Shown here: in pieces, positions 1 through 28,776 of the stretch
Position numbering within the stretch: position 1 is the stretch's first letter
Layout of the letters: every line of letters begins with the position of its first letter
Virus record (IMG/VR): IMGVR_UViG_3300028198_000279
Location: 1-35,108 of that record
DNA from: a virus
Strand: one strand, 5' to 3'
Length of the DNA stretch: 35,108 nucleotides
Made by a program: the position numbers and the translations under genes
The notes under the pieces: generated by a model
What the model was told of the DNA's origin: nothing
Seen by the model: the letters and a program-made list of their open reading frames with translations, nothing else
Database searches by the model: none

Positions 1-276
1 AATATTATGTGAAACATTCTGTAGGTTCACCACAGATGAATCTGGGTGGTCTAATTCCCCCATAGCCCGACGTTCTTTAATATAGGTGGTTGTATACTTC
101 TTAGCCTCTCTTACTAAAACTTCACGCGGATAAACTCTACCATTTTGGTTTTTAGCCTCTGCTCGTTGAAGTACACCTTTAACAATTAATTTACCATCAT
201 TTTCTTTTAATGATTCATTTATCTGTTCCGATTTTACTTCAAATGGTAGATAATCTACTAATAGTTCCTTGTTCAT
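1..276 (-). CDS. 21: Prohead core protease, gp21-like (N-terminal 92 residues, runs off the window)
   Basis: The ATG at 276-274 opens a frame (MNKELLVDYLPFEV...) that stays open to base 1, giving 92 codons of a truncated gene. Residues from about 32 read IVKGVLQRAEAKNQNGRVYP, then REVL, and later ERRAMGELDHPDSS. This VxxGxxxxAexxNxNGRxYP and GELDHP pattern is what I associate with the T4-type prohead serine protease gp21 of marine myoviruses; the His of GELDHP is a likely catalytic residue. The enzyme sits in the prohead core and cuts head and internal proteins after Glu in I/L-x-E contexts (family knowledge). The fragment itself contains QINE/S at residues 18-22, a possible self-cleavage site. 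It is two bases downstream of the 85-residue gene, and the order portal, small core genes, protease matches T4. The catalytic Ser lies outside the window. Confidence 0.85.
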   Translation of the reverse strand, partial: MNKELLVDYLPFEVKSEQINESLKENDGKLIVKGVLQRAEAKNQNGRVYPREVLVREAKKYTTTYIKERRAMGELDHPDSSVVNLQNVSHNI

Positions 277-278: not shown

Positions 279-536
279 TTATTTTATCCTCTTAGTGAGT
301 GCCATAAATTCTCTCATAAATTTAGTTATATTCTGTTGATATGACCTTATTATTTTATTAGCCGTGGGTTTTTCACCACCACTACTTAAATCTTGTGCTA
401 ACTCATACATCGTATGACGTAAACGACTTTCTGCCTTACGTAAAGTCTTTATCTGTTTTTGTAATTTTTTATCACTAACAGGTGCCTCTATTAAAAGTTC
501 AGAAGCCTCAAGAAAATCTTTTAATCCTACAGACAT
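279..536 (-). CDS. Small charged helical protein of the head-gene cluster
   Basis: 85 residues, start ATG overlapping the stop of the upstream gene (TAATG). The sequence is rich in Lys, Arg, Glu and Gln and looks almost wholly helical; residues 23-50 (KKLQKQIKTLRKAESRLRH...) could form a coiled coil. No known catalytic motif. In T4 the slot between portal gp20 and protease gp21 holds the small prohead-core proteins gp67 (about 80 residues) and gp68 (about 141 residues). By place and size this protein and its 145-residue neighbour could be their counterparts, although T4 has the shorter one first and I see no convincing sequence match. Role in the prohead core is therefore a positional inference. 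Confidence 0.7.
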   Translation of the reverse strand: MSVGLKDFLEASELLIEAPVSDKKLQKQIKTLRKAESRLRHTMYELAQDLSSGGEKPTANKIIRSYQQNITKFMREFMALTKRIK

Positions 537-973
537 TAGTATAATTTACCAACTTTATTAGCTAATTTAACTAATCTCTCACTAATTTTACCTAATGCCT
601 TATGAGTAGTTTTCCAATAATCTCTTGAATCTATGTTCAATTCATTTTTCAGTCTAACATTATATTGAACAGTTCTTTCTAATTCTTGTAAGGAATCACG
701 AGTTTCTCTCATTGCTAAACCAATTTTTTGTTTAGGTGTTAAAGTCTCATCATTTCTATATTGATGATATCTGCCTTCTTTAACAACTTCATATCCAGTT
801 GAATTGGTTGCCACTTCTTCTTCCTTATCCTTATCTTTCTTTTTCTTCGAACTAAATGCAAACGGTGTATTATATCCTGCAATATCACCAGTTTGTGTAA
901 TTTCATTAGTGCTTAATAATTCTCTAACAAATGCCCTAATATATTGTCTTAACTTATTTTCTGTCAAGGACAT
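536..973 (-). CDS. Head-region protein with an IIREEL-type N-terminal helix
   Basis: 145 residues; GGAG sits 7 bases before the ATG at 973, inside the end of the upstream gene (20-base overlap). The N-terminus, residues 1-23, is a charged amphipathic helix (KLRQYIRAFVRELL) followed by STNE, like the leaders found on many other proteins in this window (KLRQYIR compared with QLREIIR and KLRRVIR). A low-complexity Lys/Glu stretch follows at about 43-53 (KKKKDKDKEEE), then a helical C-terminal half. Length and position recall T4 gp68, a prohead-core protein, but homology cannot be shown by eye. The leader suggests targeting to the prohead core and removal by gp21 after STNE-24 (inference). Confidence 0.72.
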   Translation of the reverse strand: MSLTENKLRQYIRAFVRELLSTNEITQTGDIAGYNTPFAFSSKKKKDKDKEEEVATNSTGYEVVKEGRYHQYRNDETLTPKQKIGLAMRETRDSLQELERTVQYNVRLKNELNIDSRDYWKTTHKALGKISERLVKLANKVGKLY

Positions 974-1876: not shown

Positions 1877-3688
1877 TTACGATTTAGAATTTATTTCCTT
1901 ATCATATTCCTCTTTTACTTCCTCAGACTCAGTTAATATCTTTGTATGAGGTTTAATTAATGTTCCCTTTAGTTTATCAACGTGGGCTAAAGCTAATGAC
2001 TTACCATATTTAGGTGCTCCACTCCCACCTTTTCTTTTATCGTGTTTTCCTAATGGATCTCTTCCTCTTGCACTACCATCTTTTCCATAGTGAGGGCCTT
2101 CTTTAGGTCTACCTGCTCCCGGCTGTCCACCTTCTGGAGCTCCACCCTCATCTTCTAACTCATGACCAGTTCTTCCCATAGCTAAATCACTCGGTGTTCC
2201 TTGTGATTCACCAGATTTTGCTGGATCATTTCCTTCCGTTTCTATTTGTCCTCTTCTAAATTTTTGCTTAAAATCGAAAACAATACCTTCATCTTCTTTT
2301 TTAATTTCTTCTTCGGTGAATCCAAATATGTTTCTATAAATCCAATCTGTAGAAACTATACCATCTTGTAACATTGAAGATGCAAGTGAAGTTTTACTCG
2401 TCCACAACTCAATTTTTTCTTGTTCATATATTGTAGATGGATTTGTTAAACCTAAATCAAAATTAACTAAATCTGCGTCTGTATATCCTTGTACGTATAA
2501 ATGTACAATAGCAATCTTTGTTAATTCACTAACAATAATTCTTTGTATTCTTTCAATCGTTCTTGCAAATCTAACATCTTCTGCTGCTAAAGTTGCCTTT
2601 GAACCAACTTGTTCTTCGTATCCAAGAAACGCCTTTGGAATCTTTAATGCTGCCATCAACTTATTTCTTAGATACTCAATATCTTCAACTGCTTCATAAG
2701 TTAATCCAGGTAATGAATCTATTTGTGTTCCACTATCTCCACCACGAACAGGTACAAAGAAATCTTCTGTTATGTTTTGCATATTATATCGTAAATTATA
2801 ATCACCAGATTCTTTTTCTACTACGGGTGCCTTTTTCATTTTATTGATAATTTGTTGCATATAATTATCAACTTCGTTTGGTGGAATATTACCTATATCA
2901 ATTTTAAATACTCTCTTTTCTGGAGCTCTCATAATTCTGTGAATCAACATAGCATCTTCCATAAGTGAAAGTTGTTTCCAAGTCTTTCTACCACCTTCAA
3001 CCATAGCCTTACCATACGGTAAATAATTTGAATCTCCCAATAATCTAAAATGTGCAATTTCGAAATTTTCAAATTCTTGTTGAGTATGAGTTACTTTTGT
3101 CTGATTTGGATCTGCTGATTCTAATACAAACTTAACATATTCTGGATTTTCTGGATCAATTCCTTCTAATCTCACTACATCATAGCTTGATAACGGAACT
3201 ACATTTTTAACTCCATATTTATCATCTATTTCTAAATGTAAAAAGAAATCTCCATACTTACACATATTACGAACCCAAGACCATAAATTAAATTCTACAT
3301 TCAAAATATCATAAAATAAATTATGTAATATTTGTTTTATTTGATCATTATCACTATTGATTGTTAAAACATCACCATACTCGGATTTCATTGTTGATTC
3401 ATCTGAATAAACATCCAATGCTGATGATATAATAGAATCACTATCCATTGATTCATAATCTCTAAATAACCCTAACCGCATTGAGCGTACCATCGCGGTA
3501 TCTGAATATCCAGATAATCCTTTACCCGTTGAAAACAATCGTTGATATCTATCCACCAATTGTTTTTGTGGTAAATATTGTACTTTACTCGTATCTGCTA
3601 CTTTTAATTTTCTTCCACCAACGTTTCTAACAATAACGTTACCTGAAAATAATCTAAACAGTCGAGCTCTTATTGATGTATCTGCCAT
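1877..3688 (-). CDS. 20: Portal (head-tail connector) protein, gp20-like
   Basis: 603 residues, AGAGGA 4 bases before the ATG. T4 gp20-type portals form the dodecameric ring at the head vertex through which DNA is packed and ejected and around which the prohead starts. Residues from about 90 to 480 have the expected pattern, e.g. SDSIISSALDVYSDEST, EFNLWSWVRNMCKYGDFFL, and KIPKAFLGYEEQVGSKATLA before the long terminal helix. T4 gp20 is about 524 residues; the excess is mostly a Gly/Pro/Asp-rich, probably disordered tail from about 490 onward. The tail ends with KTKILTESEEV-like sequence (KILTE/S), a plausible gp21 site. The gene starts only 8 bases after the terminase stop, with no sheath or tube gene between them, unlike T4. 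Confidence 0.9.
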   Translation of the reverse strand: MADTSIRARLFRLFSGNVIVRNVGGRKLKVADTSKVQYLPQKQLVDRYQRLFSTGKGLSGYSDTAMVRSMRLGLFRDYESMDSDSIISSALDVYSDESTMKSEYGDVLTINSDNDQIKQILHNLFYDILNVEFNLWSWVRNMCKYGDFFLHLEIDDKYGVKNVVPLSSYDVVRLEGIDPENPEYVKFVLESADPNQTKVTHTQQEFENFEIAHFRLLGDSNYLPYGKAMVEGGRKTWKQLSLMEDAMLIHRIMRAPEKRVFKIDIGNIPPNEVDNYMQQIINKMKKAPVVEKESGDYNLRYNMQNITEDFFVPVRGGDSGTQIDSLPGLTYEAVEDIEYLRNKLMAALKIPKAFLGYEEQVGSKATLAAEDVRFARTIERIQRIIVSELTKIAIVHLYVQGYTDADLVNFDLGLTNPSTIYEQEKIELWTSKTSLASSMLQDGIVSTDWIYRNIFGFTEEEIKKEDEGIVFDFKQKFRRGQIETEGNDPAKSGESQGTPSDLAMGRTGHELEDEGGAPEGGQPGAGRPKEGPHYGKDGSARGRDPLGKHDKRKGGSGAPKYGKSLALAHVDKLKGTLIKPHTKILTESEEVKEEYDKEINSKS

Positions 3689-5945: not shown

Positions 5946-6275
5946 TTATTTTTTCTTAGCAAATTCTCTTAAAAAATCTTCAGCCTCAGAAATATCTTTT
6001 ACTTTCTTTGTCTTAGAAGAACCTTTTTTTACTTCTTCTATTTCTTTTTCAAGTTTTTCTGCCTTTGTTTTTAATTTATCACTCTTTTTAGAAACAGATT
6101 TAGTGGCAGACTTAATTTGTTTCTTTTTTTTCTTTATATCTTTAATTTTTTTGTCTATCTTTACTATTTTCTTCTTTTTTATCTTAGATAATAGTTGAGA
6201 TAATCCCAGAAAAAAAGTAAATATCCAAACAGGATTAATTTTTTTAAAGAATTTCCTGATTGAGTCCCTACTCAT
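5946..6275 (-). CDS. Very basic coiled-coil protein with one membrane segment
   Basis: 109 residues. Residues 15-28 (PVWIFTFFLGLSQLL) form a short hydrophobic segment. It is followed by a strikingly Lys-rich run (KIKKKKIVKIDKKIKDIKK and on) and then a heptad-like helix (KLKTKAEKLEKEIEEVKKG). The pattern suggests a membrane- or DNA-contacting rod. The start ATG overlaps the stop of the upstream 84-residue gene. T-rich sequence on the opposite strand produces a long plus-strand frame here, which I regard as a shadow. No family recognised. Confidence 0.65.
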   Translation of the reverse strand: MSRDSIRKFFKKINPVWIFTFFLGLSQLLSKIKKKKIVKIDKKIKDIKKKKKQIKSATKSVSKKSDKLKTKAEKLEKEIEEVKKGSSKTKKVKDISEAEDFLREFAKKK

Positions 6276-7745: not shown

Positions 7746-7752
7746 ACCTTTA

Positions 7753-7760
7753 TATAAATA
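7753..7760. promoter_or_regulatory. TATAAATA element at the start of the endonuclease gene
   Basis: Plus strand TATAAATA; coding strand TATATATTTATATAAAGG just before the ATG at 7745. It shares the ATATTTAT core with the other intergenic gaps but is much closer to the start codon, so a message starting here would have almost no leader. It may be chance in an AT-rich spot. Confidence 0.25.
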
Positions 7761-7781
7761 TATAGGATACAAAAAAATGTA

Positions 7782-10700
7782 TTAAAAGTTCACCAATCCC
7801 AAAATCTGGTTAATCGGAGCAAAACTTCCTGTAAACTTATAAGTATTACCTTTATACTTAAATACTATTCCTTCTGATGGAACTATTGAAGATAGTCCAC
7901 CAATTGCTTCTAATTTTTCAAGTTGGTGTTTTAACGTAGCCAACTTTTTAACATCTTTACCTCGTTTTACCTGTTTTATTGCCGCAATTACATCTCTTCT
8001 TATCTTTTGTACCGTACTATCTCCCGAAACTGCTAAATATCCACTAATATTCTTCAATATTTGTGCACCTACATCAAAAAATAAAACTTCAAAGGGTTTC
8101 ATATTCTGTTTTACCGTTTCTTGATGGTCATTCTTATCAAATGATAATACCCAGTCTAAAAAATCAGGAAATTTCTTCAAATCTTTTTTAATCGTTGGTA
8201 TCTTATATGACTTATCAAAAAACGCCCATCTTTTAGTTAAATTAATCAAAACTTTATTCGATATTTTTGCACTATGTTGTTTTGTTGCGTTAAAGATAAA
8301 TTCTTCCCAAAATGATTGATGATACATAGATAAAGTATCATTATCTTTTAATGCATATTCTTTTTGTAATTTATTTAATCTACTGATAAACCCAGCCTTC
8401 TTTTTTCCAAAATCTTGTACTTTAGATACTGTTAAAAATTGAGGTTTACCAATTTTATAATGTTTTTGTACGTGTTGATTAACTTGTTTAATCATACCTG
8501 CCAACATTCGTCCAGAACCTTTAAGTTCTCCAATTGCCTTCCCGCTATCATCATATTCTAATGCTCCGTGAAATACAATCTCTGCTTTATCATAATTGAT
8601 TACATTTGATGATGCTGGATACATGACTTCAAGATTCATCCAATTCTTACCATTACCAAAAATCTTTTCTTTTTGTGCATCGGATAATCTACCGATAGAT
8701 TTTCCCAAATCTTTCATTGCAAATACAAAGGCATCTCTAATATCACCTCTACCTGCAAACTTAGATGCTACTCCACTCGTATCCATCGAATTTGCTCCAA
8801 AATTCTTTAGTTGACCTTTATTTCTGGCCGTGACTAATTTTCCATCTTTCCAACTAACCATTAAATTTTGACCATCAAGTTTCTCTGTAACATTATCTTC
8901 ACGACTAAGATTTCCACCCAATCCTAAAGTAATAATGTTTTTTAAATCACCAAATGTCAAATTTTTATCATCAAAGGGATGATTCATGTGTCCATAGGCT
9001 CCACCCATTAATAATAACTCCTTTCCATTATCTTGTTTATCTGTAACTAATAAATTTACATATTCTTTTAAATCAAAAATATTATCACTATGAAATTTAT
9101 CCATTGGTGATAATTTAAGCTTTTTTGCTCTTTTTGTATTTTGTCCAACTGAGTCTATATCAACTCCGGCCGATACGGGTGCCTCAACTGCCACTCCTGT
9201 ATAATCTTTACCATCGGGAGTAATTCCGTTCCAATTAAGAACTTCCCAACCCAAACTACTCATTATAAATTTTATTCTATCTTTATATGCCTCTATTGGA
9301 TTTGTCTTACCAAATCTTTCACCGTAGGCTCCAGCTCCTTTTTTACCATATGCCACTGCCGGAACTATGTTTTTTGAAGTTGTATAATCAAGTCCTGGAT
9401 CTTTTGCAGAATCACTTATAATATAACTCAATAAATCCCAACCCGTATCATTGATTTGTTCATGAGAATACATATTTTCAATCCAAGACTTTGTAACTCG
9501 TTTGTAATCCTCAAATCCATCATAAAATGTTGGTGGGCCGTCATCCGTAGGAAACATACCACTATTAGCAACTTCTTTTAATAATTTTGGTATAATATTT
9601 GGATTATTAACTAAAAACCCATCATATACTTCAAATAATTTTTTAAATTTATTAGTCATCATTTGGAATACCCCTTTATCAAAGTATCCGAATGCCTTTT
9701 TAAATAATTTTTCTCTATTCTTTTCAAATTCAGGTGAACCAAGTAGTTGTCTTATAGTAGTTCCACTTACTTCCTTTCCACCAACTCTAACTGAAACGTG
9801 TGGTGCTGTATGAATGTATCCGTGTTCCTCGTATCCACTCATGTTATTTTTATTCTTTTTATAATCTTGATAATAAGTTTTTCCACCACTTTTCTTTGTT
9901 CCACCCGTTAATCTATCGGCGTCCTTTTCACCAAATATGTAAATTACTGCAGTTGTTTCTTCATCAAATTTATTTAATGTGTTTTTAGCAACATAAGGTG
10001 TTCTTTCTTTTATAATACGATTAGATGGTATACCCATTTTTTTCATATGACGAACTTTTTCCTTAAAGTTCATTGGATGTCTTGGTGGTTGTTTTATATC
10101 AGATGTAGTGATATATGCTACATCAACTTGTTTTTCTAACCATTTATAGGTTTTCAAATGGTGGGGCCCAAACGGTTGAAACCGTCCACCGTATACACCT
10201 ACGACTTTTTTAATTTTTGATTTTTCTTCTATCACATTAGTTGTGGCTTCACTTTTCTCACTAATGGAATATACAACATTTTTAGTATATAAGTCAAGCG
10301 TTTTATTAAGTTTTTCAACAGTCACTCCAGTATCTTTAATTGCACTTTTCTTCTCTGCCTTATCTGTAGTAACGTATGTGTCGTATTTATCACCTGGAGA
10401 ATGTTCATATTGACGAACTTTTAATTTAATTTTTGATTCATAATCGCTTGGTAAAGTATTCTCAATTCCTAAAAATTTAACCGCTCCTGGTATCAAATAT
10501 AAAGTCACTTCTTTTTTATTTAAATTCATCATTAACTGACTTGATGTCCAGAGTTTATTTTGTGCCCTAACTAAATCATATTTGGGGCCTTCATTTTGTT
10601 TATGATTATAAAACGATGGAAATACCTTCTTGTAATCTTTTTCTTTAGTTAATATCTCTAAAGAATTATTCAATCTCACTACAGAAGAATGTCTATCTGT

Positions 10701-12563
10701 TCCACTAGTATATCCTTGTTCTGGATGATAAATCCCGTGATTTGACTTAACTACTGGTTGTTTTAAATCTTGTATTTTCACATAAGGACTAACTCTACTT
10801 GTATTTTCTATTTCAACTAATTTATTTCCATCACTAATTAATGTATGTCCCTTAATACCACCATGATATGTTATAAGTGATTCAACTGCATCTTTTAAAG
10901 TCGTTTTAGAAAGTGCCTCTCTGATTCTTACACCATCTTTAGACATAGCCTTCTTTTTCTTTGCTTTATCAAAATCTTTCTCATCTCGTTTTACAAATAG
11001 TGCTGAATTTACAATTCCTATTCCATGAGAATTCATTCCTTCTGACCAATCTGTATCTTGGTCTATCATATAACATAACTCCACACCATAACCAGTTAGT
11101 TCCCTAACTACTTTTAGATTTGGATTATAATTTCTATCTCGGTTTTTACCTATTACAATATCATCACCAAATTTTTTGGCTATTGCAATACATTCATCTA
11201 CTTTACGATATTCATCATCTTTTCGTTGTTTATCTAATTGTTTTTTTACTTTATTAACTTTCTTTACACTTGGTGCACCACCAATAGATTCTTTTCTAAA
11301 AGTTCCAAATTTTGGTTGACCTGATTTTTTTGTTCTTTTTCCACGACTAACTAAATTTTCATCATCTGGTGAATTAACGGGTGTGGGTGCCTGATTATCA
11401 AGATAATTTGGTGGATTTAACATCTCGGTTGTAATCTTTTGTTTATCTAACCACTTTTTAGCCTGTTTACTTTTTATTGGTTTTTTAATAAATTTACTAA
11501 TTCCCTTTCTAACCAACATATTGAATTTTCTCTGTGCTTGTTTTGGATTCAAGGTAGCATTATTATCTACTAACATAAAGTTAGACCCACCAAATAATCC
11601 TTGAAAGTATGCCATATTTTTTTGAACATTATTCCAATACTTTTCTACAAGTTCAGATGGTAAAACTCTATCTCTTAATTTATTTCTCATTTGTGCAACT
11701 TCTAATGAAGTATTAACAAATACCATATAGGTATCATAACCTAAATCAATCAATTTTTGTCGTTCTTTTTTTACATCTGAAAATTTATGACCAGTACCAT
11801 CAATAATAACACCAAGTCTACCTTTTGAATATAACTTTAATCTTTGTTTACTCAATGCTTTAGCGTGTGTTCTCACTCCCATATGTGCACTATAACTTGG
11901 GTCTGTAATCTGTCTAAATAAATCATTTGACATATTATCTAAATCTGTTGTACCAAAATACTTTTTCAAAAACATTTCTAATTCTGTATCTTGATTAACA
12001 AGTTTTAATCCGTATGCTGAAGTGGTTAATTTATCGGGTATTCCAAACAATCCACCAGCAACATATGACTTTCCACTACCTGGCCCACCTGCAAGAAATA
12101 CTGCTTTGAATATTCCTGGATCATTTTTTCCTTCAAATAAATCATCTGCTTTCCAAATATCTTTTGGGTCTTGTGCCATATCTAAAACTTGTATTCGAGC
12201 TTTCGTAACTCCGTGTTTCTTAGTTAATATTTTTATTATCTTTTTAGCTTCGGAATGTGATTTAGCCTTTGTATAAAGTATATCTTCGTGTTTCTTACCT
12301 GGAGGAATACCCCAAATTACAAATTCTTTTTTACTTTCATCTATAGTATCTTCGTCAAATATATTAACTGTTTTATGTATTCTGAATGTGGCAGCTTTTC
12401 TACCATTGATAGTTGGCATGCCGTGGTCATCTTTACCAATATCTTTGATTTTCATTTTCTTGTTTTTAAATTTACCAACAAGAATAGTATCACCAATATT
12501 AACTGGTATATTTATATCTTCTTCTATCAGGGGTTTAGTTAACCATTCAGTTAATTTATTCAC
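7782..12563 (-). CDS. 1593-residue multi-enzyme protein: P-loop kinase, Ntn-hydrolase, HIGH nucleotidyltransferase, RNA-ligase-like domain
   Basis: Starts with GTG (GGA 8 bases upstream). Domains seen in order: a short leader MNKLTEWLTKPLIEE; a small SH3-like segment at 20-65; a zeta-toxin/polynucleotide-kinase-like P-loop at about 150-350 (Walker A GGPGSGKS 159-166, IIDGTG 253-258); an acyltransferase/choloylglycine-hydrolase type Ntn fold at about 458-700 (Cys458, NRD 474-476, EGMNSHGIGIVNS 508-520, NH 608-609); a HIGH-superfamily nucleotidyltransferase at about 785-970 (GRFQPFGPHH 793-802, VSGTTIR 932-938); an unassigned part at 980-1150; and a covalent nucleotidyltransferase at about 1150-1593 (EKLDG 1227-1231 with Lys1228, NLEVMYP 1310-1316, EGIVFKYKG 1564-1572, YKFTG 1575-1579). 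Domain joints coincide with IDE/S, LFE/G, VDE/C, IEE/K and LFE/V. Kinase plus ligase suggests RNA end repair; packaging in the head is inferred. Confidence 0.85.
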   Translation of the reverse strand: MNKLTEWLTKPLIEEDINIPVNIGDTILVGKFKNKKMKIKDIGKDDHGMPTINGRKAATFRIHKTVNIFDEDTIDESKKEFVIWGIPPGKKHEDILYTKAKSHSEAKKIIKILTKKHGVTKARIQVLDMAQDPKDIWKADDLFEGKNDPGIFKAVFLAGGPGSGKSYVAGGLFGIPDKLTTSAYGLKLVNQDTELEMFLKKYFGTTDLDNMSNDLFRQITDPSYSAHMGVRTHAKALSKQRLKLYSKGRLGVIIDGTGHKFSDVKKERQKLIDLGYDTYMVFVNTSLEVAQMRNKLRDRVLPSELVEKYWNNVQKNMAYFQGLFGGSNFMLVDNNATLNPKQAQRKFNMLVRKGISKFIKKPIKSKQAKKWLDKQKITTEMLNPPNYLDNQAPTPVNSPDDENLVSRGKRTKKSGQPKFGTFRKESIGGAPSVKKVNKVKKQLDKQRKDDEYRKVDECIAIAKKFGDDIVIGKNRDRNYNPNLKVVRELTGYGVELCYMIDQDTDWSEGMNSHGIGIVNSALFVKRDEKDFDKAKKKKAMSKDGVRIREALSKTTLKDAVESLITYHGGIKGHTLISDGNKLVEIENTSRVSPYVKIQDLKQPVVKSNHGIYHPEQGYTSGTDRHSSVVRLNNSLEILTKEKDYKKVFPSFYNHKQNEGPKYDLVRAQNKLWTSSQLMMNLNKKEVTLYLIPGAVKFLGIENTLPSDYESKIKLKVRQYEHSPGDKYDTYVTTDKAEKKSAIKDTGVTVEKLNKTLDLYTKNVVYSISEKSEATTNVIEEKSKIKKVVGVYGGRFQPFGPHHLKTYKWLEKQVDVAYITTSDIKQPPRHPMNFKEKVRHMKKMGIPSNRIIKERTPYVAKNTLNKFDEETTAVIYIFGEKDADRLTGGTKKSGGKTYYQDYKKNKNNMSGYEEHGYIHTAPHVSVRVGGKEVSGTTIRQLLGSPEFEKNREKLFKKAFGYFDKGVFQMMTNKFKKLFEVYDGFLVNNPNIIPKLLKEVANSGMFPTDDGPPTFYDGFEDYKRVTKSWIENMYSHEQINDTGWDLLSYIISDSAKDPGLDYTTSKNIVPAVAYGKKGAGAYGERFGKTNPIEAYKDRIKFIMSSLGWEVLNWNGITPDGKDYTGVAVEAPVSAGVDIDSVGQNTKRAKKLKLSPMDKFHSDNIFDLKEYVNLLVTDKQDNGKELLLMGGAYGHMNHPFDDKNLTFGDLKNIITLGLGGNLSREDNVTEKLDGQNLMVSWKDGKLVTARNKGQLKNFGANSMDTSGVASKFAGRGDIRDAFVFAMKDLGKSIGRLSDAQKEKIFGNGKNWMNLEVMYPASSNVINYDKAEIVFHGALEYDDSGKAIGELKGSGRMLAGMIKQVNQHVQKHYKIGKPQFLTVSKVQDFGKKKAGFISRLNKLQKEYALKDNDTLSMYHQSFWEEFIFNATKQHSAKISNKVLINLTKRWAFFDKSYKIPTIKKDLKKFPDFLDWVLSFDKNDHQETVKQNMKPFEVLFFDVGAQILKNISGYLAVSGDSTVQKIRRDVIAAIKQVKRGKDVKKLATLKHQLEKLEAIGGLSSIVPSEGIVFKYKGNTYKFTGSFAPINQILGLVNF

Positions 12564-13097: not shown

Positions 13098-13331
13098 TTA
13101 AATAGCTTTTTTAATATGTTTAGATTTTCCATTCGTTAATTTTTCTTCTTGTTTTAATTTTACATCAGGTTTCCCTGTCAATTTATATCCAAGAACTTCT
13201 GCATTACTCATTCGAACCTTTTCAAATTCAGCTCTGTCCTTCTCATTCAACTCTCCACCAAACCCCTCATGTATCACTCGTTCAAGTTCTTCACCAATCA
13301 TTCTATGTATAGCTGCTTTTGTTATTTTCAT
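13098..13331 (-). CDS. Small leader-bearing basic protein, candidate head cargo
   Basis: 77 residues. The leader MKITKAAIHRMIGEELERVI is followed by HE/GFGGELNE/KDRAE, giving two candidate gp21 sites: VIHE at 19-22 and ELNE at 26-29. The remaining 48 residues are charged and Lys-rich (PDVKLKQEEKLTNGKSKHIKK) without a recognised fold. It starts one base after the stop of the next leader-bearing gene and shares the MKITK start with it. T4 internal proteins are likewise small and basic, and have a short targeting leader removed by gp21; equivalence is inferred from the pattern. Confidence 0.7.
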   Translation of the reverse strand: MKITKAAIHRMIGEELERVIHEGFGGELNEKDRAEFEKVRMSNAEVLGYKLTGKPDVKLKQEEKLTNGKSKHIKKAI

Positions 13332-13332: not shown

Positions 13333-13572
13333 TTAATCCCACCCTGAATGATTTTTTTCTAAGTGTCTATAAATCATAGTAACTATTTTTTTGAGAGTCT
13401 GTGCATGTTTTTTTAATTTTGCATCTTTTCTAGTATCAGTATTTCTTCCAACAAACCACTCAAAATTTTCAACTGCATCACCAAGTTCATAATATGCACT
13501 TTTAAGATTCATTTGTTCCTTTAACAATTCTTCTCTAATGATTTCTCTTAGTTGTGTTTTAGTTATTTTCAT
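13333..13572 (-). CDS. Small leader-bearing helical protein, candidate head cargo
   Basis: 79 residues; the ATG overlaps the end of the 728-residue gene by four bases (ATGA type). The N-terminus MKITKTQLREIIREELLKE is the clearest example of the leader type: Lys-rich start, amphipathic LREIIREEL helix, ending in LKE/Q. The mature part (about 60 residues) appears to be two helices (SAYYELGDAVENFEWFVG and LKKHAQTLKKIVTMIYRHLE). No catalytic motif. Likely translated by coupling with the polyprotein upstream. Confidence 0.72.
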   Translation of the reverse strand: MKITKTQLREIIREELLKEQMNLKSAYYELGDAVENFEWFVGRNTDTRKDAKLKKHAQTLKKIVTMIYRHLEKNHSGWD

Positions 13573-15755
13573 TTTACTTTATTTCCTAACAATTTTACCC
13601 ATTCGTCATATTTTAATGAGACTGAACCTGTCCTTATGTTTCCATAATTAATGTTATCCATATCTCTAGCTCTACCACCACCGATTACTTTCAATGCCCT
13701 TTTTCTAAAATCATTTGGTATTACATCTTTTCCGGATCTTGCTACTCTTACGTCAATCCAGGGATTGTGGTTTGCCTGTTTTATAACTCTAACCTTTACA
13801 GGTATTTTAAGAAGTCTTCTCATATATGGTTTTAATTTTCTTGCGTATTTCGGATATTCTGACCATTCTTCTTTTGAAATTTTTTCATTTACGGATTCTT
13901 TAAGTGGTTTTCCATTTCTCAAAACCCTCTTAATAAATTTTACTCTTATTTGACTATCAAAATTTGATTTAGATAATTTTGCATCAGATGCAAACATTCC
14001 ACCAGTTGCTTTCTTTTTAGCAACTAAACCCATATGAATATTTTTACCATCATTTTTCGCAACATAATACTGAGCATAACCATAATCTATGGTATCTTTT
14101 GGTTGAATACTATCAAATTTTACGGCTTCATTTACGGATTCGTCAATCGGAGTCATATATCCACCAATCTTTTTCTTCTTTATCATAGTCATTGGTATGG
14201 TGTATCTCCAATTATCATTTGGATTATAAACTTTCATTCCTTTAGAGTCTATACTCACTACTTTAACGGTGTCTTTCCATTTTCCATAATTAAGTAAATA
14301 CCATTTCCCTACTTCTACATATCCACCTTTACTATGTGCTATTTTTGCTTCATTTACTGATTCCATTACACCAAATGCAATATCACCAACAACTCTATCT
14401 GGTTTAGATACATTTTTCTTATTTAAAATACCATATCTTTTACCATTCAACTTAAATGTATATCGTGGTAATCCCATACTTGTTTGGAAATCAGATTTAA
14501 TTCTAACCTTTTTTAACGCTCTACCAACATCCATAAAGTTTTTTGCAGATTTCACTATTTTTTCTATTGTGTCTAATTCTTTTGATTCATTTACTGATTC
14601 TTTTAACTTAACAATCTTATAATTTCCTCTGAATTGCCAATCCAATCCATTTAATTGATTTTTTGCGTCCTTTTCAGATTTAAATTGTAATGCGTCTTTT
14701 ACTTTTTTAACATCTCTGGATTTATTACTTAAATATCTATTTTTATCCTTCTTATATTGAATTACATATTTTAAGTTTCCTTCATTTACGGATTCATTTG
14801 CGTTTCGAAGTGCCACTTTTACTGTAGAATTTAAAGATAAACCTTTTTTAATTTTTTCAATTTTCTTAACAGCCCCTGTCATATTACCACTCATCTTTTT
14901 AGCTATATCTACTGCTTTCTTAATTAATATAGTAGAAACTCCTTCTTTCACAGATTCAAGTGATAACCATCCTTTTTTATTAGCTAAATCCCAAGTTTTT
15001 GGTGTAAAATGTTCTTTTCTATTACCTGGTGCAGCAAACATATAACTTGTTCCCCCAACACGACCAGTTTTAACACTTTTCAAAGTATATACTCTACGAG
15101 GGTCACTCTTAAATCTTACTTTCATTTTATTAATATCTTTTTTTTGTGGGCGAAGTGTTGTTTTGAATGAACCTTCATTTGCCGTTTCTTTTTTCAAACG
15201 ACTTTTTTCTGCTCTACCTCTATTTGTAGATTCTTTTTCAAATCCCATAATTTTTCCTCCCTTATGTGATGCGTCCTTACCATCACCATTACCGTAAGTT
15301 CCTTTTTTTCTGTTATACTGATTTAATTCTGCTCTATATTTTTTTGCTTTCGGAGATGAACCATATTTCTTGTATTCTGCTTTATAATCTCGTTCTTCTT
15401 TTATACCAAGAACTTTAGTTAAATTTAACAATACATCTATTATTTCATCAGATCTAAAACCATCAAGTTTACGATGAAATGGTTTAATCTTTGGATGATT
15501 GTAAACTTTCATTATTGTTTTAGCTGTTTTACCGTTCAAACGCATACCATCAACTTCACCATACTTGTTAGCTTTAGCCAATTTTTCAATTTTTTGAATT
15601 GGTGTCATTTTCTTTAGTTCATTTACGGATTTTATTTCTTGTCTTATAACACGGCGTAACTTTTCCCTTATAGCTTCTTCCTTTGCCCATTTCTTAGCCA
15701 TTTCTGGATCGTTTGCGTACATCCATTTTCTCTGTTTATCTGATTTGAAGGGCAT
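13569..15755 (-). CDS. 728-residue putative head-cargo polyprotein with repeated ESVNE linkers
   Basis: The first 28 residues, MPFKSDKQRKWMYANDPEMA and on, match an F-x-S-x-K-Q-R-x-x-x-x-A-N-x-P motif common at the start of small phage proteins. An IREKLRRVIRQEIKSVNE helix ends at Glu46. After this, nearly identical linkers recur: TANE194, SVKE271, SVNE325, SVNE390, SVNE469, SVNE543 and SVNE624. They divide the chain into a 46-residue leader and blocks of 148, 77, 54, 65, 79, 74, 81 and 104 residues. The blocks are strongly basic, differ in sequence, and several look like small beta folds (GYVEVGKWYLLNYGKWKDTV; YTFKLNGKRYGILNK). T4-type gp21 cuts after Glu in I/L-x-E; V-x-E is close. I infer that the chain is cut into small basic proteins inside the prohead. 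I recognise no enzyme domain. Confidence 0.82.
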   Translation of the reverse strand: MPFKSDKQRKWMYANDPEMAKKWAKEEAIREKLRRVIRQEIKSVNELKKMTPIQKIEKLAKANKYGEVDGMRLNGKTAKTIMKVYNHPKIKPFHRKLDGFRSDEIIDVLLNLTKVLGIKEERDYKAEYKKYGSSPKAKKYRAELNQYNRKKGTYGNGDGKDASHKGGKIMGFEKESTNRGRAEKSRLKKETANEGSFKTTLRPQKKDINKMKVRFKSDPRRVYTLKSVKTGRVGGTSYMFAAPGNRKEHFTPKTWDLANKKGWLSLESVKEGVSTILIKKAVDIAKKMSGNMTGAVKKIEKIKKGLSLNSTVKVALRNANESVNEGNLKYVIQYKKDKNRYLSNKSRDVKKVKDALQFKSEKDAKNQLNGLDWQFRGNYKIVKLKESVNESKELDTIEKIVKSAKNFMDVGRALKKVRIKSDFQTSMGLPRYTFKLNGKRYGILNKKNVSKPDRVVGDIAFGVMESVNEAKIAHSKGGYVEVGKWYLLNYGKWKDTVKVVSIDSKGMKVYNPNDNWRYTIPMTMIKKKKIGGYMTPIDESVNEAVKFDSIQPKDTIDYGYAQYYVAKNDGKNIHMGLVAKKKATGGMFASDAKLSKSNFDSQIRVKFIKRVLRNGKPLKESVNEKISKEEWSEYPKYARKLKPYMRRLLKIPVKVRVIKQANHNPWIDVRVARSGKDVIPNDFRKRALKVIGGGRARDMDNINYGNIRTGSVSLKYDEWVKLLGNKVK

Positions 15756-15760: not shown

Positions 15761-16048
15761 TTAAAATGCTCTCTCTATAGAATCATAATCACTAAATTTC
15801 TTTTTAGCATATGCGAATAATTTTTTGTCTAATGCGTTTCGAGCAATATTTGTTTCATTTGCTCGTCTTAAATAATCTTGAACTATATTAAGTCCTTTAT
15901 ATGCTTGTTCTAATTTTTTATCTACTTCTTTTGCCAAAATTATTCTAGCTTCTGTATGATTATTTACATCAGTAAGTCGCTCTATTTTATTAATAAGAGC
16001 TCCACCAAGTTCTTTCTTTTCTGTTAATATTTCTTTTAATTTTATCAT
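15761..16048 (-). CDS. Small leader-bearing helical protein, candidate head cargo
   Basis: 95 residues beginning MIKLKEILTE/KKELGG, the shorter of the two leader types in this block (MIKLKE followed by I/L and ending in TE or KE). The remainder is helical and basic (GGALINKIERLTDVNNHTEA, later KKLEQAYKGLNIVQDYLRRA), with no catalytic motif. Five bases separate it from the polyprotein gene and its ATG overlaps the stop of the next gene upstream. The DNA just inside the start is shared with the two leader genes upstream. Confidence 0.7.
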   Translation of the reverse strand: MIKLKEILTEKKELGGALINKIERLTDVNNHTEARIILAKEVDKKLEQAYKGLNIVQDYLRRANETNIARNALDKKLFAYAKKKFSDYDSIERAF

Positions 16049-16330: not shown

Positions 16331-16657
16331 TTAACTCCTATTTTCCATTGGATGACTTTTCATATATTTAACGAATTGTCTTGCACCATCAATATATCCT
16401 AATAATTCTTTTTTATCAACTCCCTTAAAAAATCCACTTTTTAATGCAACATTTAAAATAGCCTTTGTATTTTTATTTTTATTTCTCATTACTATACCCT
16501 GTAATACATCGGCTTGGTCGGAAGATAATATACCCATACCACCCTCATTTACTTTTTTAACTTTATGCTTTTCAGTAGAGGTTTCTAATGTTGGTAAAGG
16601 TTCTCCAAATTTTCTTTTCCATGCGTGTTCTTTTATTAATTCTTTTAATTTTATCAT
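16331..16657 (-). CDS. Leader-bearing cargo candidate, tandem paralogue B
   Basis: 108 residues from the ATG at 16657, which overlaps the stop of the upstream gene (TAATG) and has GGAG 8 bases before it. A TTG six codons earlier is rejected because the Shine-Dalgarno then falls inside the frame and the paralogue begins at MIKLKE. The leader MIKLKELIKEHAWKRKFGEP with LPTLE is nearly that of paralogue A, and ends KHKVKKVNE/GGMGIL. The mature part, about 70 residues (SSDQADVLQGIVMRNKNKNT, later LLGYIDGARQFVKYMKSH), is helical and unlike paralogue A. Confidence 0.75.
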   Translation of the reverse strand: MIKLKELIKEHAWKRKFGEPLPTLETSTEKHKVKKVNEGGMGILSSDQADVLQGIVMRNKNKNTKAILNVALKSGFFKGVDKKELLGYIDGARQFVKYMKSHPMENRS

Positions 16658-16658
16658 T
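16574..16658 (-). repeat. 85-base direct repeat, copy 2 (leader module)
   Basis: Second copy of the leader cassette at the start of paralogue B, about 330 bases from copy 1. Mismatches are one near the LPTLE(S/T)ST codons and two in the H-S/A-W codon region. Confidence 0.88.
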
Positions 16659-17664
16659 ATTTTAACTCCGTCCAATCTTGTGGATTACTGTATCGTGATT
16701 TATAATACCATTTTTTATCTTTTACAGACCAAATATATGCGAATTCATCACCACTATTAAATTTTAATTTATCTCTATTTCTCCATGTGCTCGACATACT
16801 ACTTTTTGAACCTCTATCACGACCATAAAATACTGTTTCACCTTTTTTTGGGTGTCCAAATGAATGGTCATCACCACCCTTAATACTTTTATCAATAGTA
16901 GAAATACCTTGTTTGCCAAGTTTCATTAATTGTTTAACTTTACCAGTATTGGAATAATACCGTTTTAACATTTTACCTGCATATTCTGGGTAACCATCAT
17001 AATGTCCATAGGTAGATGCTATTTTACCACTCGGTGCTTCAATACCAACCGACCAACGAGTTCCCTCTGTTAATACTGACTGAATTTCTTCTTTAATTAT
17101 TTCTTTAATTCTCGTTTTAGTTATTTTCATTGTTTTTTTCTCAGTTACGGAACAACAAGTATGTCCTTCTTTACAATTATCACAACACTCTTTATTTGTA
17201 AGTTTTCCTTCTTTAATGGATTCAAGAGATGGATATCCTCTTTGTACATTTATAACACTCGAAATAGCACGCTTTATACTTTTTTTACCTTGTCTATAAT
17301 TATAAAACTCATTTGCTATCATAGCAGATAAATAACTTAATCCTGGGTATTTTCTGGGATTGTATATTGGATATTTAGATGCTAAATAATCTGTTATTTT
17401 TTTTAGTTGGCTTCGAGGAGCTTTCTTTGGAAATTTTTTATCTAAATCTTTAAATGTAGATGTAATATTCTTTCTTAAAGCTGAATTTACTATTTTTTTT
17501 TCATTTACGGATTCCATTTTTTCAGTACTATGTGGTTCATCAAAATCTGAATCTTCTTCTGGTGCATAATCTCTAAATCCACTTGGATGTATATTTACAC
17601 CATCTATTATATTCTTATATTCTTCACGCACTATGCGTTTTAAAACTTCCAAAGCATCTGACAT
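16657..17664 (-). CDS. 335-residue composite cargo protein with internal leader and Cys-rich segment
   Basis: GGAG lies 7 bases before the ATG at 17664. The N-terminus ALEVLKRIVREEYKNII resembles the other leaders. Candidate cut sites are SVNE55, SIKE152, SVTE175 and VLTE200. Between 153 and 175 lies a short Cys-rich peptide (KECCDNCKEGHTCC, five Cys). At 179 a complete second leader appears inside the chain, MKITKTRIKEIIKEEIQSVL with TE/G, followed by a domain (about 201-335) of the type SxIGxxxPSGxIxSxYxHxDGYPExxGxxL (here SVGIEAPSGKIASTYGHYDG), a phage hypothetical family I recognise as recurrent. The internal Met has only weak GAG upstream, so this looks like a fusion of two formerly separate leader genes into a polyprotein rather than two genes. 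First gene of the cargo block after the 69-base gap. Confidence 0.78.
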   Translation of the reverse strand: MSDALEVLKRIVREEYKNIIDGVNIHPSGFRDYAPEEDSDFDEPHSTEKMESVNEKKIVNSALRKNITSTFKDLDKKFPKKAPRSQLKKITDYLASKYPIYNPRKYPGLSYLSAMIANEFYNYRQGKKSIKRAISSVINVQRGYPSLESIKEGKLTNKECCDNCKEGHTCCSVTEKKTMKITKTRIKEIIKEEIQSVLTEGTRWSVGIEAPSGKIASTYGHYDGYPEYAGKMLKRYYSNTGKVKQLMKLGKQGISTIDKSIKGGDDHSFGHPKKGETVFYGRDRGSKSSMSSTWRNRDKLKFNSGDEFAYIWSVKDKKWYYKSRYSNPQDWTELK

Positions 17665-17733: not shown

Positions 17734-19224
17734 TCAAGAAAAGACCTTTACTCCATATTTTTTAGAAAATGCAGTCGCATCTATGTAAGAATTCACAATT
17801 GGTTGTCCTTTTATGTTTAAACTTGTGTTTAATACCATAGGACACCCCGTTTTTTTGTAAAATTCCTTAATTAACTTGTAAAATCCAAGATTATCTTCCT
17901 TAGAAACAGTTTGAACTCTCGAAGTACCATCTATATGACATATAGCTGGATATTTCTTTGGATATTTACACTTTGCTACAAATTGCATAAATTGACTCTT
18001 CTTAACGGGCATATCAAATAGTTCATGAGCGTGTTCTTCCAATACTGCAGGTGCAAATGGTCTAAATTCTTGTCTATGTTTGATTTTATTCACTTTATCT
18101 TTAATTTTCTTACCACGAGGATCAGCCAACAGCGATCGATTGCCCAATGCGCGCGGCCCAAACTCAGCTCTACCATTTGCAACTCCAACTATGTTAGTTA
18201 GAAGTAATTCATCTAATACTTTCTTTCTTGGATAACGGCCACCTATATCATAACCTGTAAATGGTGTTTTCCAATTCACGTGCTCTCCGAAAGCATATGC
18301 CGCACATCCTAACGAACTACCTGCATCTCCTGGGTTTGGTAATATCCATAAATTAGGATATAACTCTTCTGCAATAATACTATTGGCTACACAGTTCAAT
18401 GCAACTCCACCACCATATACACAATTATCTGTTTCGGGAACTAATCTTTGGGCCAATTCAAATACACTATATATCTCATCTTCACAAATACTCTGTACAT
18501 TGGCGGCTATATCAAATTTCCATTGTTCACTATCATCATCTGGGTAGTATGTTGGATTCCAATCTAAACATCCTCTATGTAGATTTTGTGTTAATCTAAT
18601 AGGTAATGGTGTCTCTTTGAAAAAATCATTCCGTATATTCTGTTTTAATTCTTTATCAACCGTTCCCCAACCTGCCATTCCCATAAGAATGTATTCATCT
18701 TCTTGTGGTTTCAATCCTAATCGTTGAGTCATTGCACTATACCACAATCCTAATGAGTTTGGATATCTTATCGAGTATCGTTTTTCTAAATGTCCCCCAT
18801 ACGCATACCAAATAGAACAAGTTTCCCATTCTCCCATAGCATCTATAACCACAATTGCAGATTCTTCATAAGGTGATGTAAAATAACCTGCTGCTGCGTG
18901 AGATGTGTGATGTTGTACATATTCTATTGGTGTATTTCCAACAAAATCTCTTAAATAATAAGATGGTAAATTTTTACGAGATAATACTTCACCGTATTGA
19001 CCTGCTCTTAATTGTCTTAACTTTTTTAGATATGGTCTTTCATAATATACTACCTTATCTGGTCTACCATATTTAAAACAATCACTAAATAGTGGTTGAT
19101 TCAAATCAGGGTCGTTTTTAATACCACTATAACGTTCACTATGTGCAGCAAATAATATCTCACCATCTTCTATCATAGTTATGGCTGCATCGTGGTTTAA
19201 AGCGTTTATTCCTAATATTTTCAT
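17734..19224 (-). CDS. Carbamoyltransferase, NodU/CmcH type
   Basis: 496 residues. Family members transfer a carbamoyl group from carbamoyl phosphate, via carbamoyl-adenylate, to a hydroxyl on a sugar or other small molecule. The N-terminal Kae1/TsaD-like ATP-grasping fold starts MKILGINALNHDAAITMI; metal-binding HHTSHA at 105-110; VVIDAMGEW at 125-133; GGGVALNC at 271-278. The C-terminal carbamoyltransferase domain carries NGRAEFGPRALGNRSLLADP at 350-369 and VLNTSLNIKGQPIV near the end. It is somewhat shorter than the usual 550-600 residues, having lost the very C-terminus. GAGGA precedes the ATG, which overlaps the stop of the SGNH gene. As last gene of the accessory operon it probably decorates the sugar made by the genes upstream. 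Confidence 0.92.
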   Translation of the reverse strand: MKILGINALNHDAAITMIEDGEILFAAHSERYSGIKNDPDLNQPLFSDCFKYGRPDKVVYYERPYLKKLRQLRAGQYGEVLSRKNLPSYYLRDFVGNTPIEYVQHHTSHAAAGYFTSPYEESAIVVIDAMGEWETCSIWYAYGGHLEKRYSIRYPNSLGLWYSAMTQRLGLKPQEDEYILMGMAGWGTVDKELKQNIRNDFFKETPLPIRLTQNLHRGCLDWNPTYYPDDDSEQWKFDIAANVQSICEDEIYSVFELAQRLVPETDNCVYGGGVALNCVANSIIAEELYPNLWILPNPGDAGSSLGCAAYAFGEHVNWKTPFTGYDIGGRYPRKKVLDELLLTNIVGVANGRAEFGPRALGNRSLLADPRGKKIKDKVNKIKHRQEFRPFAPAVLEEHAHELFDMPVKKSQFMQFVAKCKYPKKYPAICHIDGTSRVQTVSKEDNLGFYKLIKEFYKKTGCPMVLNTSLNIKGQPIVNSYIDATAFSKKYGVKVFS

Positions 19225-20003
19225 TTAAAGTATTCCTCTACTTTTGGTGTAATAACATCTGCACAAAATGCTTCGTGTCCTTCTCGTGTAGAATGTATTG
19301 TATGATCGAATGGGATATTATTTTCTATATTATGTTCATATATACCTTTTGTTCCATCATATAAACAAAACTTATCCATATCAATTAAATCATATAAATG
19401 TTTTGGTTCTTCGTATTTGGATAACCCTTCTGTAAATAAATCATTTAAGCTTGTCATAAAATATGGTATATTATATTTTTCTAAAAACCATTGTGTTCTC
19501 AATATATTTTCTAATGTTTCCCAAAACATTCCTTCAAAGGTATAATAATCTGTATACCAAGTTTTCCAAAATTCTGTATCCGCTTCTACCCAATTATGCA
19601 TCCCACTTTTCATCCATAAACTATTGATATCTTTTGATTTTTTATAAGCCTCTCCACTCATCGTCACAGTTGGATATGTTAATTTATCATCAATAACTTG
19701 ATCTAACCATAACTTACTGGGTTGTTTTTTAATCTCTCCCCATTTTAATGTTTCTTTTCTACTAATCAAAATATCTTTTCTACTAACATCAGTCCACATC
19801 ACCCCAACCACTAAATCTTTTTCATCCATATAATGATGGGATATTGTATTTATTAACTGTTTTGCTATAAAGGAATTTCCACTCATACCAGAACCAAGAT
19901 TAACTAATTTTGTATTCATTTGTTTAGATATGAGATTTGGCCAAGAAAATCCACCTGGTCTATCTTCAGTAAAACTACAACCACTTGTTAATAGGGTTTT
20001 CAT
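19221..20003 (-). CDS. SGNH-fold hydrolase-like protein (GCSFT type)
   Basis: 260 residues. MKTLLTSGCSFTEDRPGGFS at the N-terminus has the block-I pattern of SGNH esterases with Ser as nucleophile (GCSFT, Ser10), then LVNLGSGMSGNSFI (block II Gly, block III GxN-like). The C-terminus FDHTIHSTREGHEAFCADVI supplies the block-V His in H-S-T-x-x-G-H. Such proteins remove or transfer acyl groups on sugars. It overlaps the carbamoyltransferase start and the stop of another SGNH gene upstream, making a tandem pair. Substrate unknown. Confidence 0.75.
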   Translation of the reverse strand: MKTLLTSGCSFTEDRPGGFSWPNLISKQMNTKLVNLGSGMSGNSFIAKQLINTISHHYMDEKDLVVGVMWTDVSRKDILISRKETLKWGEIKKQPSKLWLDQVIDDKLTYPTVTMSGEAYKKSKDINSLWMKSGMHNWVEADTEFWKTWYTDYYTFEGMFWETLENILRTQWFLEKYNIPYFMTSLNDLFTEGLSKYEEPKHLYDLIDMDKFCLYDGTKGIYEHNIENNIPFDHTIHSTREGHEAFCADVITPKVEEYFK

Positions 20004-20698
20004 TCGAAATATTTCTCCATCTTTATTTCTCTCGGTGTGAAATCGTCTCTGTCTATAATATCTTTTAAAAACAAATACATATTATAATTATTTTTATCAT
20101 TTAAATGATTTTTCCTATCATCCTTTGATATAGTGTTCGAATCAAAATTAGGTTCTTTCATAGAAATATCTTCATACAAATATAAATTTCCCCAAACAAC
20201 ATTTTCTGGTATATAATCGGGAAAACTTTCTGAAAAACATTTTAAAAATATACATTTTTTATTATATTTCTTCACTACACTCTCTATTTCTCTCAATAAC
20301 CCTCTATGTGTTGTTTCCATATGTGAATCATCATATAACATTTTATAATAATACTTTACTGCAGTTTGTAATTCCTTATAATTAAATACTGACGGTAATA
20401 TTCCATGACTGTGAGAATATCGCTTATCATCTTGTATTTCAATAAATGCATTTTTATCCATCCCTTGATTAATTGTAATTGGTAATTTAAATGGATTAGA
20501 TAACCTACTTGGATCTGTGATACAAAATATTATTAAATCGGCCTCCTTAATATTTTCAATCATTCTCTCGTAGGCATGAAATAAAGATAACCCAGATGTT
20601 CCCTTACATAAAATTTCTGCATTATATTTTTTAACTATTCTCGACGGCCAACTCAGGGGACTAAAATCTACTACAAAACTGTCACCACAGAAAGCTAT
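20000..20698 (-). CDS. SGNH-fold hydrolase lacking a normal start codon (possible -1 frameshift product)
   Basis: The first ATG in frame is at 20563, but the frame is open upstream and encodes IAFCGDSFVVDFSPLSWPSR and on. It contains the GDS nucleophile motif that the shorter ORF lacks, while the matching block-V residues (DRKNHLNDKNN) are in the C-terminal part. A functional enzyme therefore needs the upstream 45 codons. Between the in-frame TAA near 20734 and the GDS codons there is no ATG, GTG or TTG; only ATC or ATA codons. The end of the 69-residue gene just upstream is GGA AAA AAA TAG; a -1 slip on A-AAA-AAA continues directly as ATA GCT TTC (I-A-F). I annotate from that ATA at 20698. 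Alternatives are AUA initiation with AGGA upstream, or a one-base error or mutation. Confidence 0.7.
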   Translation of the reverse strand: MAFCGDSFVVDFSPLSWPSRIVKKYNAEILCKGTSGLSLFHAYERMIENIKEADLIIFCITDPSRLSNPFKLPITINQGMDKNAFIEIQDDKRYSHSHGILPSVFNYKELQTAVKYYYKMLYDDSHMETTHRGLLREIESVVKKYNKKCIFLKCFSESFPDYIPENVVWGNLYLYEDISMKEPNFDSNTISKDDRKNHLNDKNNYNMYLFLKDIIDRDDFTPREIKMEKYFE

Positions 20699-20904
20699 TT
20701 TTTTCCTTGATATGATACTATCCCCGCATTAGCTATTATTTGTTCAAACGTATATGTTTCTAATTCATCCATATGTTCAATCGGATGTAACGTTTCAAAA
20801 AAATCTAAAATCCAATCATAGTCCTGATTGTTATATGCTATAAGAATATCACAAATATCTCTTTCTGTTATAACATATTTATTATTTGGTAATTCTATTT
20901 TCAT
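20695..20904 (-). CDS. Small acidic protein, possibly the N-terminal part of a frameshift fusion
   Basis: 69 residues; GAGGA four bases before the ATG. The sequence MKIELPNNKYVITERDICDI and on is acidic with WILDFFETLHPIEHMDELET in the middle, compatible with a small helical domain; no family recognised. It ends ...SYQGKK, with a seven-A run directly before the TAG. If ribosomes slip -1 there, the product continues into the SGNH hydrolase, giving about 301 residues. If not, it is a free small protein whose stop overlaps the hydrolase coding region. Confidence 0.65.
   Translation of the reverse strand: MKIELPNNKYVITERDICDILIAYNNQDYDWILDFFETLHPIEHMDELETYTFEQIIANAGIVSYQGKK
20698..20704 (-). promoter_or_regulatory. 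A-AAA-AAA slippery heptamer
   Basis: Coding strand GGA AAA AAA TAG. The heptamer fits X-XXY-YYZ and lies directly before the stop of the 69-residue frame; slipping back one base enters the SGNH frame exactly at its conserved N-terminal strand. No obvious downstream hairpin was identified by eye. The run could also cause polymerase slippage or a sequencing error. Confidence 0.5.
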
Positions 20905-27980: not shown

Positions 27981-27982
27981 AA

Positions 27983-28765: not shown

Positions 28766-28776
28766 AGTTATCTCCT

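Follow-up and report, generated by a model that had tools for sequence, protein, structure and literature searches.

The window, the whole stretch of DNA analysed here, is a 35,108-base contig recorded from an uncultured virus, and it contains a long gene whose product repeats the peptide ESVNE between otherwise unlike segments. A first-pass annotation made from the sequence alone proposed that these segments are head-packaged proteins made as one chain and separated by the prohead protease. We asked whether the chain is built of separable units, what the recurrent linkers do, and whether the units are likely to be cut apart and delivered from the phage head.

A chain of small basic blocks and its gene neighbourhood

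The frame at 13569-15755 (minus strand) is a genuine open reading frame of 728 aa with an ATG start. Its linker glutamates fall at SVNE46, TANE194, SVKE271 and SVNE at residues 325, 390, 469, 543 and 624, and all eight positions listed for x-x-x-E linkers in the first-pass annotation match the translation. ESVNE occurs five times, compared to 0.0006 occurrences expected from composition, and the linkers have the form V-x-E save for one A-x-E. Residues 47-194 (148 residues) split into modules 47-120 and 121-194, as homologues of either one are found elsewhere beside different blocks; the chain therefore consists of a leader and nine cargo blocks of 54-104 aa, all nine of them small and basic (pI 9.6-10.6). 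The basic character earlier assigned to most blocks thus extends to every one, but the count of eight blocks of 54-148 residues becomes nine. A simple tandem-repeat protein or origin was rejected: the gene has no tandem repeat, and its blocks are spread over many families. The parts of the gene are as follows, with a slash here and below marking a putative cut.

13569..15755, minus: block polyprotein, 728 aa, ATG to stop (ORF and relatives)
15618..15755, minus: leader, residues 1-46, MPFKSDKQRKWMY...KLRRVIRQEIKSVNE/, helix motif LRRVIRQEI; phrog_1375
15396..15617, minus: block 1, residues 47-120; homologue between two ESVNE linkers in L115 (52% identity, E 4e-20)
15174..15395, minus: block 2, residues 121-194, C-terminal ETANE; phrog_6437 (5.6e-13), >100 homologues among collected loci
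14943..15173, minus: block 3, residues 195-271, C-terminal ESVKE; homologues in L042, L063, L072 and L103, in other neighbourhoods
14781..14942, minus: block 4, residues 272-325, GNMTGAVKKIEK, C-terminal ESVNE; 16 distinct homologous segments in other contexts, and a homologue in phage C48C1
14586..14780, minus: block 5, residues 326-390, C-terminal ESVNE; 98-100% identical block behind other neighbours in L002 and L013
14349..14585, minus: block 6, residues 391-469, C-terminal ESVNE; L002 (100%) and L100 (44%)
14127..14348, minus: block 7, residues 470-543, C-terminal ESVNE; 92-100% identical behind five different left-neighbour families
13884..14126, minus: block 8, residues 544-624, C-terminal ESVNE; homologues
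13572..13883, minus: block 9, residues 625-728; AlphaFold2 domain, homologues at 65-90%

No Pfam family matches the 728-aa protein, and its blocks match unnamed PHROGs only; in ten larger relatives, DUF3008 leaders were the only Pfam matches above cut-off. A fold search of a viral library returned one homologue, an unannotated 668-aa protein (A0A1B1IVH2, 44% identity), and searches of the PDB at E ≤ 0.001 gave no fold relatives for blocks 7-9 or for the GGMGIL block of a neighbouring gene.

Transcription runs from high to low coordinates, with the head region on the minus strand. The gene order is a second polyprotein, three small leader-bearing genes, the 728-aa polyprotein and two more small leader genes, then an endolysin, a 1593-aa multi-enzyme protein, the terminase, a T4 portal, three small genes and the start of gp21.

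16657..17664, minus: second block polyprotein, 335 aa, with MESVNE/, ESIKE/ and an internal start-like leader MKITKTRIKEIIKEEIQSVLTE/
16331..16657, minus: solo leader with VNE/ and GGMGIL block; same cargo in-chain elsewhere (84% identity)
15761..16048, minus: solo gene; homologue is the final block of the L092 polyprotein (70% identity)
13098..13331, minus: solo gene, leader ending ELNE/; cargo in-chain in L007-L010
3697..5286, minus: large terminase gp17; PF03237, phrog_2
1877..3688, minus: T4-like portal gp20; PF07230, 6e-77
536..973, minus: gene between portal and protease; C-terminal domain behind ESVNE/ESINE (alternative linkers) in L040, L109 and L121 (64-76% identity)
279..536, minus: gene between portal and protease; homologue is the final block of the L137 and L049 polyproteins
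1..276, minus: gp21 prohead protease, N-terminal 92 aa, cut by the contig end; PF03420 Peptidase_S77, 6.5e-10, QINE/S precedes the catalytic domain

Other features of the window lie outside these genes. The 1593-aa protein (7782-12563, minus) resembles a P-loop kinase at residues 153-317 (Zeta_toxin/AAA_33) and a cytidylyltransferase/NMNAT at 790-869, and inspection by eye adds a ligase-like EKLDGQN motif; enzymes like these are separate genes in phage Melnitz, with T4-like leaders (MLTLINFSKYITE/D and MKKFSEIIE/A). Inspection by eye also identified a GIY-YIG-type homing endonuclease-like frame (7128-7772, minus; YRIYKTTNLLNGKFYIGQTRQ) between this gene and the terminase and, upstream of the head cluster (17734-34923, minus), sugar-nucleotide epimerase/dehydrogenase, carbamoyltransferase-like, radical SAM-like and 2OG-oxygenase-like genes. 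At 5946-6275 (minus), a 109-aa protein has a hydrophobic segment followed by an extremely Lys-rich tail. We looked for a related locus in GTDB genome contigs as a link to a host, and found none.

Several blocks also occur as stand-alone genes. The gene at 16331-16657 carries a leader ending in KKVNE followed by the GGMGIL block, which stands within chains in L002, L011, L072 and L090 (84% identity to the L072 and L090 copies), and cargo is likewise common to polyproteins elsewhere and to the solo genes at 13098-13331 and 15761-16048 and the two genes between portal and gp21. The 46-aa leader of the long chain ends in SVNE, a V-x-E form, and those of the solo genes end in VNE or LNE. A leader helix LRxxIREEI followed by L/V/I-N-E is found at gene starts and also within chains in L013, L014, L103, L215 and L241; in L014 the MKITK start is still there, suggesting that fused genes keep their leaders. 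The leader is probably a capsid- or core-targeting segment.

In AlphaFold2 models, the linker is predicted with low confidence next to a compact domain. Block 9 was predicted as a compact alpha/beta domain (ten-residue means of ~68-93) preceded by a linker below 50, and blocks 7 and 8, with shallow alignments, were modelled at low confidence. The solo GGMGIL gene gave a helix at residues 4-17, pLDDT below 50 at residues 25-41, which hold KKVNE/GG, and a three-helix domain at 46-101 near 90. A structure check for linkers buried inside compact folds thus found the linker outside both modelled folds.

Block exchange at the linker

Relatives of the 728-aa protein carry the same blocks in different orders. 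In L003, for example, the end of block 2 is joined straight, at KKESVNE, to window residues 465-728 at 100% identity, and further orders are found in L002, L011, L013, L014 and L007-L010. Among the collected loci, at least 116 non-contained ORFs have two or more linkers, reaching a maximum of 1326 aa and nine linkers, and the median linker-to-linker distance is 71 residues. Among the matches listed, 483 blocks form at least 208 families, at least 47 of them with three or more members, and 308 of 366 neighbour pairs are distinct. Together with the solo versions bearing their own leaders and the position of linkers outside the two modelled folds, this shuffling strongly supports the earlier proposal of a polyprotein of separable basic blocks.

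The linker recurs as DNA. Allowing up to two mismatches, the 15-mer GAATCCGTAAATGAA occurs seven times in the window, compared to a mean of 0.17 in shuffled sequence (0/100 shuffles reach seven); six of these matches lie in the 728-aa gene and one in the second polyprotein at 16657-17664.

13884..13898, minus: linker ESVNE624, exact 15-mer
14127..14141, minus: linker ESVNE543, exact 15-mer
14349..14363, minus: linker ESVNE469, one mismatch
14586..14600, minus: linker ESVNE390, one mismatch
14781..14795, minus: linker ESVNE325, exact 15-mer
15618..15632, minus: leader linker KSVNE46, one mismatch
17500-17514, minus: linker of the second polyprotein, exact 15-mer

A 15-mer scan of at least 120 stretches placed 165 of 173 distinct-context matches, among the matches listed, in the ESVNE frame of the longest ORF. 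Codon usage was evaluated on loci found without the 15-mer, as numbers from loci found with it are biased. Ser in ESVNE linkers is encoded by TCC in 55 of 88 cases, versus 6.4% elsewhere in the same genes (p 6e-43), and Val by GTA in 86 of 88, versus 45% (p 3e-27); these p-values are indicative only, because linkers were counted as independent despite shared ancestry. The linker is therefore conserved at the DNA level, beyond its peptide.

Homology between relatives also ends at this sequence. In ungapped DNA alignments, which gave a clear signal where gapped BLASTP at the protein level was blurred, ends coincide with a linker in 70-80% of cases at 97-100% identity, 34-45% at 90-97% and 20-25% at 65-90%, compared to an expected 5-6%, and they concentrate on the first or last base of the 15-mer. 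As alignment ends gather there even at lower identity, the linker is an exchange seam for older exchanges as well. In DNA terms the linker is thus a recombination junction as well, with the blocks as interchangeable cassettes, a point absent from the first-pass annotation.

Differing block orders could in principle be metagenome assembly chimeras: all ESVNE-type polyproteins come from metagenome contigs of uncultured phages, and several of these contigs end inside the gene, as near-identical blocks would cause. This explanation is scarcely credible, given that shuffling is also seen among blocks 65-90% identical and across many samples, and that cultured or single-cell kyanoviruses have the same multi-block architecture with other linkers; moreover, a 15-bp repeat is shorter than the words usually used in assembly. 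The contigs of relatives (n=39, mostly fragments) have a T4 portal in 31 cases and gp23 in 23. Two irregularities were seen among the loci. In L007 (342-350) the frame breaks off right behind an ESVNE linker (KESVNEVK*) and the following block is read in a different frame, reflecting either a failed junction or a sequencing error. In the L103 record (G032:C1:20168-23788) the T4 portal match falls in pieces across ~3.6 kb within a single open frame of 1440 aa, a pattern suggestive of an intein or another in-frame insertion.

The linker as a candidate prohead protease site

The peptide has the features of a protease-type site, with an invariant Glu at P1 and V/I at P3. In loci found without the 15-mer, 84 of 141 residues directly behind it (P1′) are A, G or S, versus 20% expected (p 1e-24), and K/R is depleted (p 3e-4), values again indicative given the shared ancestry. 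Where block-4 ends were collected without requiring a linker, ES[V/I/L][N/K/D]E follows in ~20 of 24.

The candidate enzyme lies in the same head cluster: the gp21 start in the window matches Pfam PF03420 (S77), the T4-type prohead protease. T4 gp21 cuts after L/I-x-E and its own C-terminal processing is expected (PMC9026906), and the head protease of SPN3US is reported to cleave its own C-terminus (PMC5694885). In 61 distinct gp21 of relatives, the first hydrophobic-x-Glu before the catalytic domain is INE/S (26), IDE/S (13), ITE/S (6) or similar, and behind the domain VNE/S (14), VNE/G (11), MNE/S (7) and similar sites are found; gp23 N-termini carry LIDE/A, LIDE/S, LIKE/A or a near variant in 29 of 30. 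Because gp21 flanks and gp23 sites match them, the linkers look like the protease's own sites. The form hydrophobic-x-Glu with a small residue behind the cut is present, but the strict T4 L/I-x-E form is not. The earlier comparison to T4 I/L-x-E therefore stands in part: the linkers of the chain are V-x-E or A-x-E, and V/I/L/M-x-E occurs in gp21 and gp23 of the same phages. From the gp21 in the window, the matching gp21 and gp23 sites and the A/G/S bias at P1′, we infer that the polyprotein may be cut by the prohead protease.

The linker might instead be a recombination seam and nothing else, a short conserved DNA stretch allowing in-frame joining of domains, within an uncut beads-on-a-string core or DNA-binding protein. 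The very strong DNA-level conservation and the coincidence of homology ends with the 15-mer fit this view, as do several junctions that have no cutting site; block 2 often runs without a linker straight into the next block (e.g. SRLKKE-AISKEEW), which could leave certain pairs of blocks fused. A protease preferring small P1′ residues, however, predicts the A/G/S excess behind the 15-mer (60% vs 20%), and DNA recombination alone does not. The V/I/M-N-E sites at both ends of the protease and the solo-block leaders ending in [VIL]xE likewise count against an uncut chain, which we regard as improbable.

Possible head delivery and known phage systems

We consider a head-core polyprotein the probable explanation: a T4-type gp21 would cut the chain at its seams, and the blocks would ride in the head. 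In this model, one chain of a leader and nine small basic proteins would be taken into the prohead core, where activated gp21 would cut behind the Glu of each (S)-V/I-x-E linker. The cuts would release proteins of 54-104 residues that could remain in the head with the DNA and be ejected. A second role of the linker is seen in its near-invariant 15-bp coding sequence, at which phages have joined, lost and traded blocks; a block flanked by it arrives in frame and would, under the cleavage model, also bring a cutting site. That the blocks are packaged, separated at every linker and ejected, and what each one does, is inferred.

Support for packaging in the head is indirect: the genes sit in a T4-like head cluster, and virion mass spectrometry is at hand for the cultured kyanovirus S-SCSM1, where it bears on a homologous leader and neighbour proteins only. 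Five consecutive S-SCSM1 genes (ORF89-93) are annotated as virion proteins; 45 virion proteins were detected by mass spectrometry, including the NMNAT ORF91, and the CsCl-purified proteome may hold carried-over proteins according to its authors (PMC9602691). ORF93 has the DUF3008 leader type that opens many ESVNE polyproteins, and ORF91 begins MKSFLQFLKE/A. A multi-block architecture is seen in ORF89 and ORF92, where segments read EEVENVDE and EEVELDE. Comparable chains that contain block 4 occur in Methylophilales phage Melnitz and in phage C48C1. These kyanovirus-type clusters share with the system described here, in one or another member, the DUF3008 leader, NMNAT or block 4, as well as recurrent Glu-ending segments, and the S-SCSM1 products are virion proteins; they differ in having EEVELDE/EEIEIDE (alternative forms) instead of ESVNE and fewer blocks per chain. 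Kyanoviridae chains L198, L199, L200 and L308 show the other recurrent linker, KEEVELDE/EEIEIDE and variants, in the same multi-block design.

Alternatively, gp21 may chop the chain at its linkers as disposable core or scaffold, with the pieces mostly leaving the head and serving no host function. The polyproteins have blocks in common with the genes that lie between portal and gp21, the place of gp67/68 in T4, consistent with such a role, and T4 core proteins are cut into several fragments that are mostly removed (PMC9026906). We find this unlikely: the block families, over 200 and unrelated, persist as modules and are swapped whole, which resembles selected cargo; at 54-104 aa, the blocks are large for peptides destined for removal; and related neighbour proteins are present in S-SCSM1 virions. 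The gene at 536..973, between portal and protease, has what we take to be the position of T4 gp67/68. Block 2 (RDYKAEYKKYG...) also matches a separate small gene in T7-like cyanophages, e.g. P-SSP2 and S-B28. To our knowledge these phages have no gp21, and head packaging is therefore not the sole setting of this block.

Returning to the reading of the chain as head-delivered cargo, the closest known system is that of the T4 internal proteins, IPI, IPII, IPIII and Alt, which have a gp21-cut capsid targeting sequence and for which each internal protein has a separate gene and a propeptide of 10-19 residues (PMC9026906). Both systems have small basic proteins, a T4-like head gene cluster, an N-terminal leader that ends in Glu, a T4-type prohead protease and unlike cargos behind similar leaders. 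The window system differs in joining many cargos in one chain with a repeated linker and exchange at that linker, in a leader sequence unlike that of T4, and in V-x-E instead of L/I-x-E. T4 gp22, gp67 and gp68 (PMC9026906) also receive several head-protease cuts and occupy the same portal-to-gp21 neighbourhood, but they are scaffold or core chains whose cut peptides mostly leave the head, whereas cuts in our chain would separate compact modules. Polyvalent proteins (Iyer et al. 2017, PMC5512222) likewise string many different domains together in a single phage polypeptide that is believed to reach the host cell, and their authors also draw a polyprotein analogy; in contrast to our chain, which lacks a Pfam domain and would be processed by a separate head protease, they have recognisable enzyme domains and embedded peptidases. 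The head protease of phiKZ and SPN3US cuts after x-x-E, and diverged proteins carry sequence-identical leaders; the available portion of that account describes one propeptide per protein and no cargo arrays or site shuffling (PMC5694885).

The open-licence literature that we searched describes neither ESVNE nor EEVELDE linkers in phages, nor a tandem internal-protein polyprotein, in agreement with the earlier view that the latter is apparently undescribed. The system is best read as a variant of the T4 internal-protein strategy organised as shuffled polyproteins, a form we did not find described in that literature. The chances are even, in our judgement, that one 15-bp sequence acts both as a head-protease site, in its peptide, and as a cargo-exchange seam, in its DNA, and that marine T4-like phages share an open-ended pool of cargo, more than 200 families strong, any of which can join a head-delivered polyprotein with no new regulatory or targeting sequence. 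If so, a panel of small proteins would be delivered from a single gene and freed by the maturation protease, and it would evolve via cassette swaps at the cutting site. The catalogue would then comprise hundreds of uncharacterised cargo families, possibly acting as infection begins, and the cutting site, being defined, would lend itself at once to a gp21 assay. Polyprotein logic, familiar from eukaryotic RNA viruses, would serve head delivery in tailed phages.
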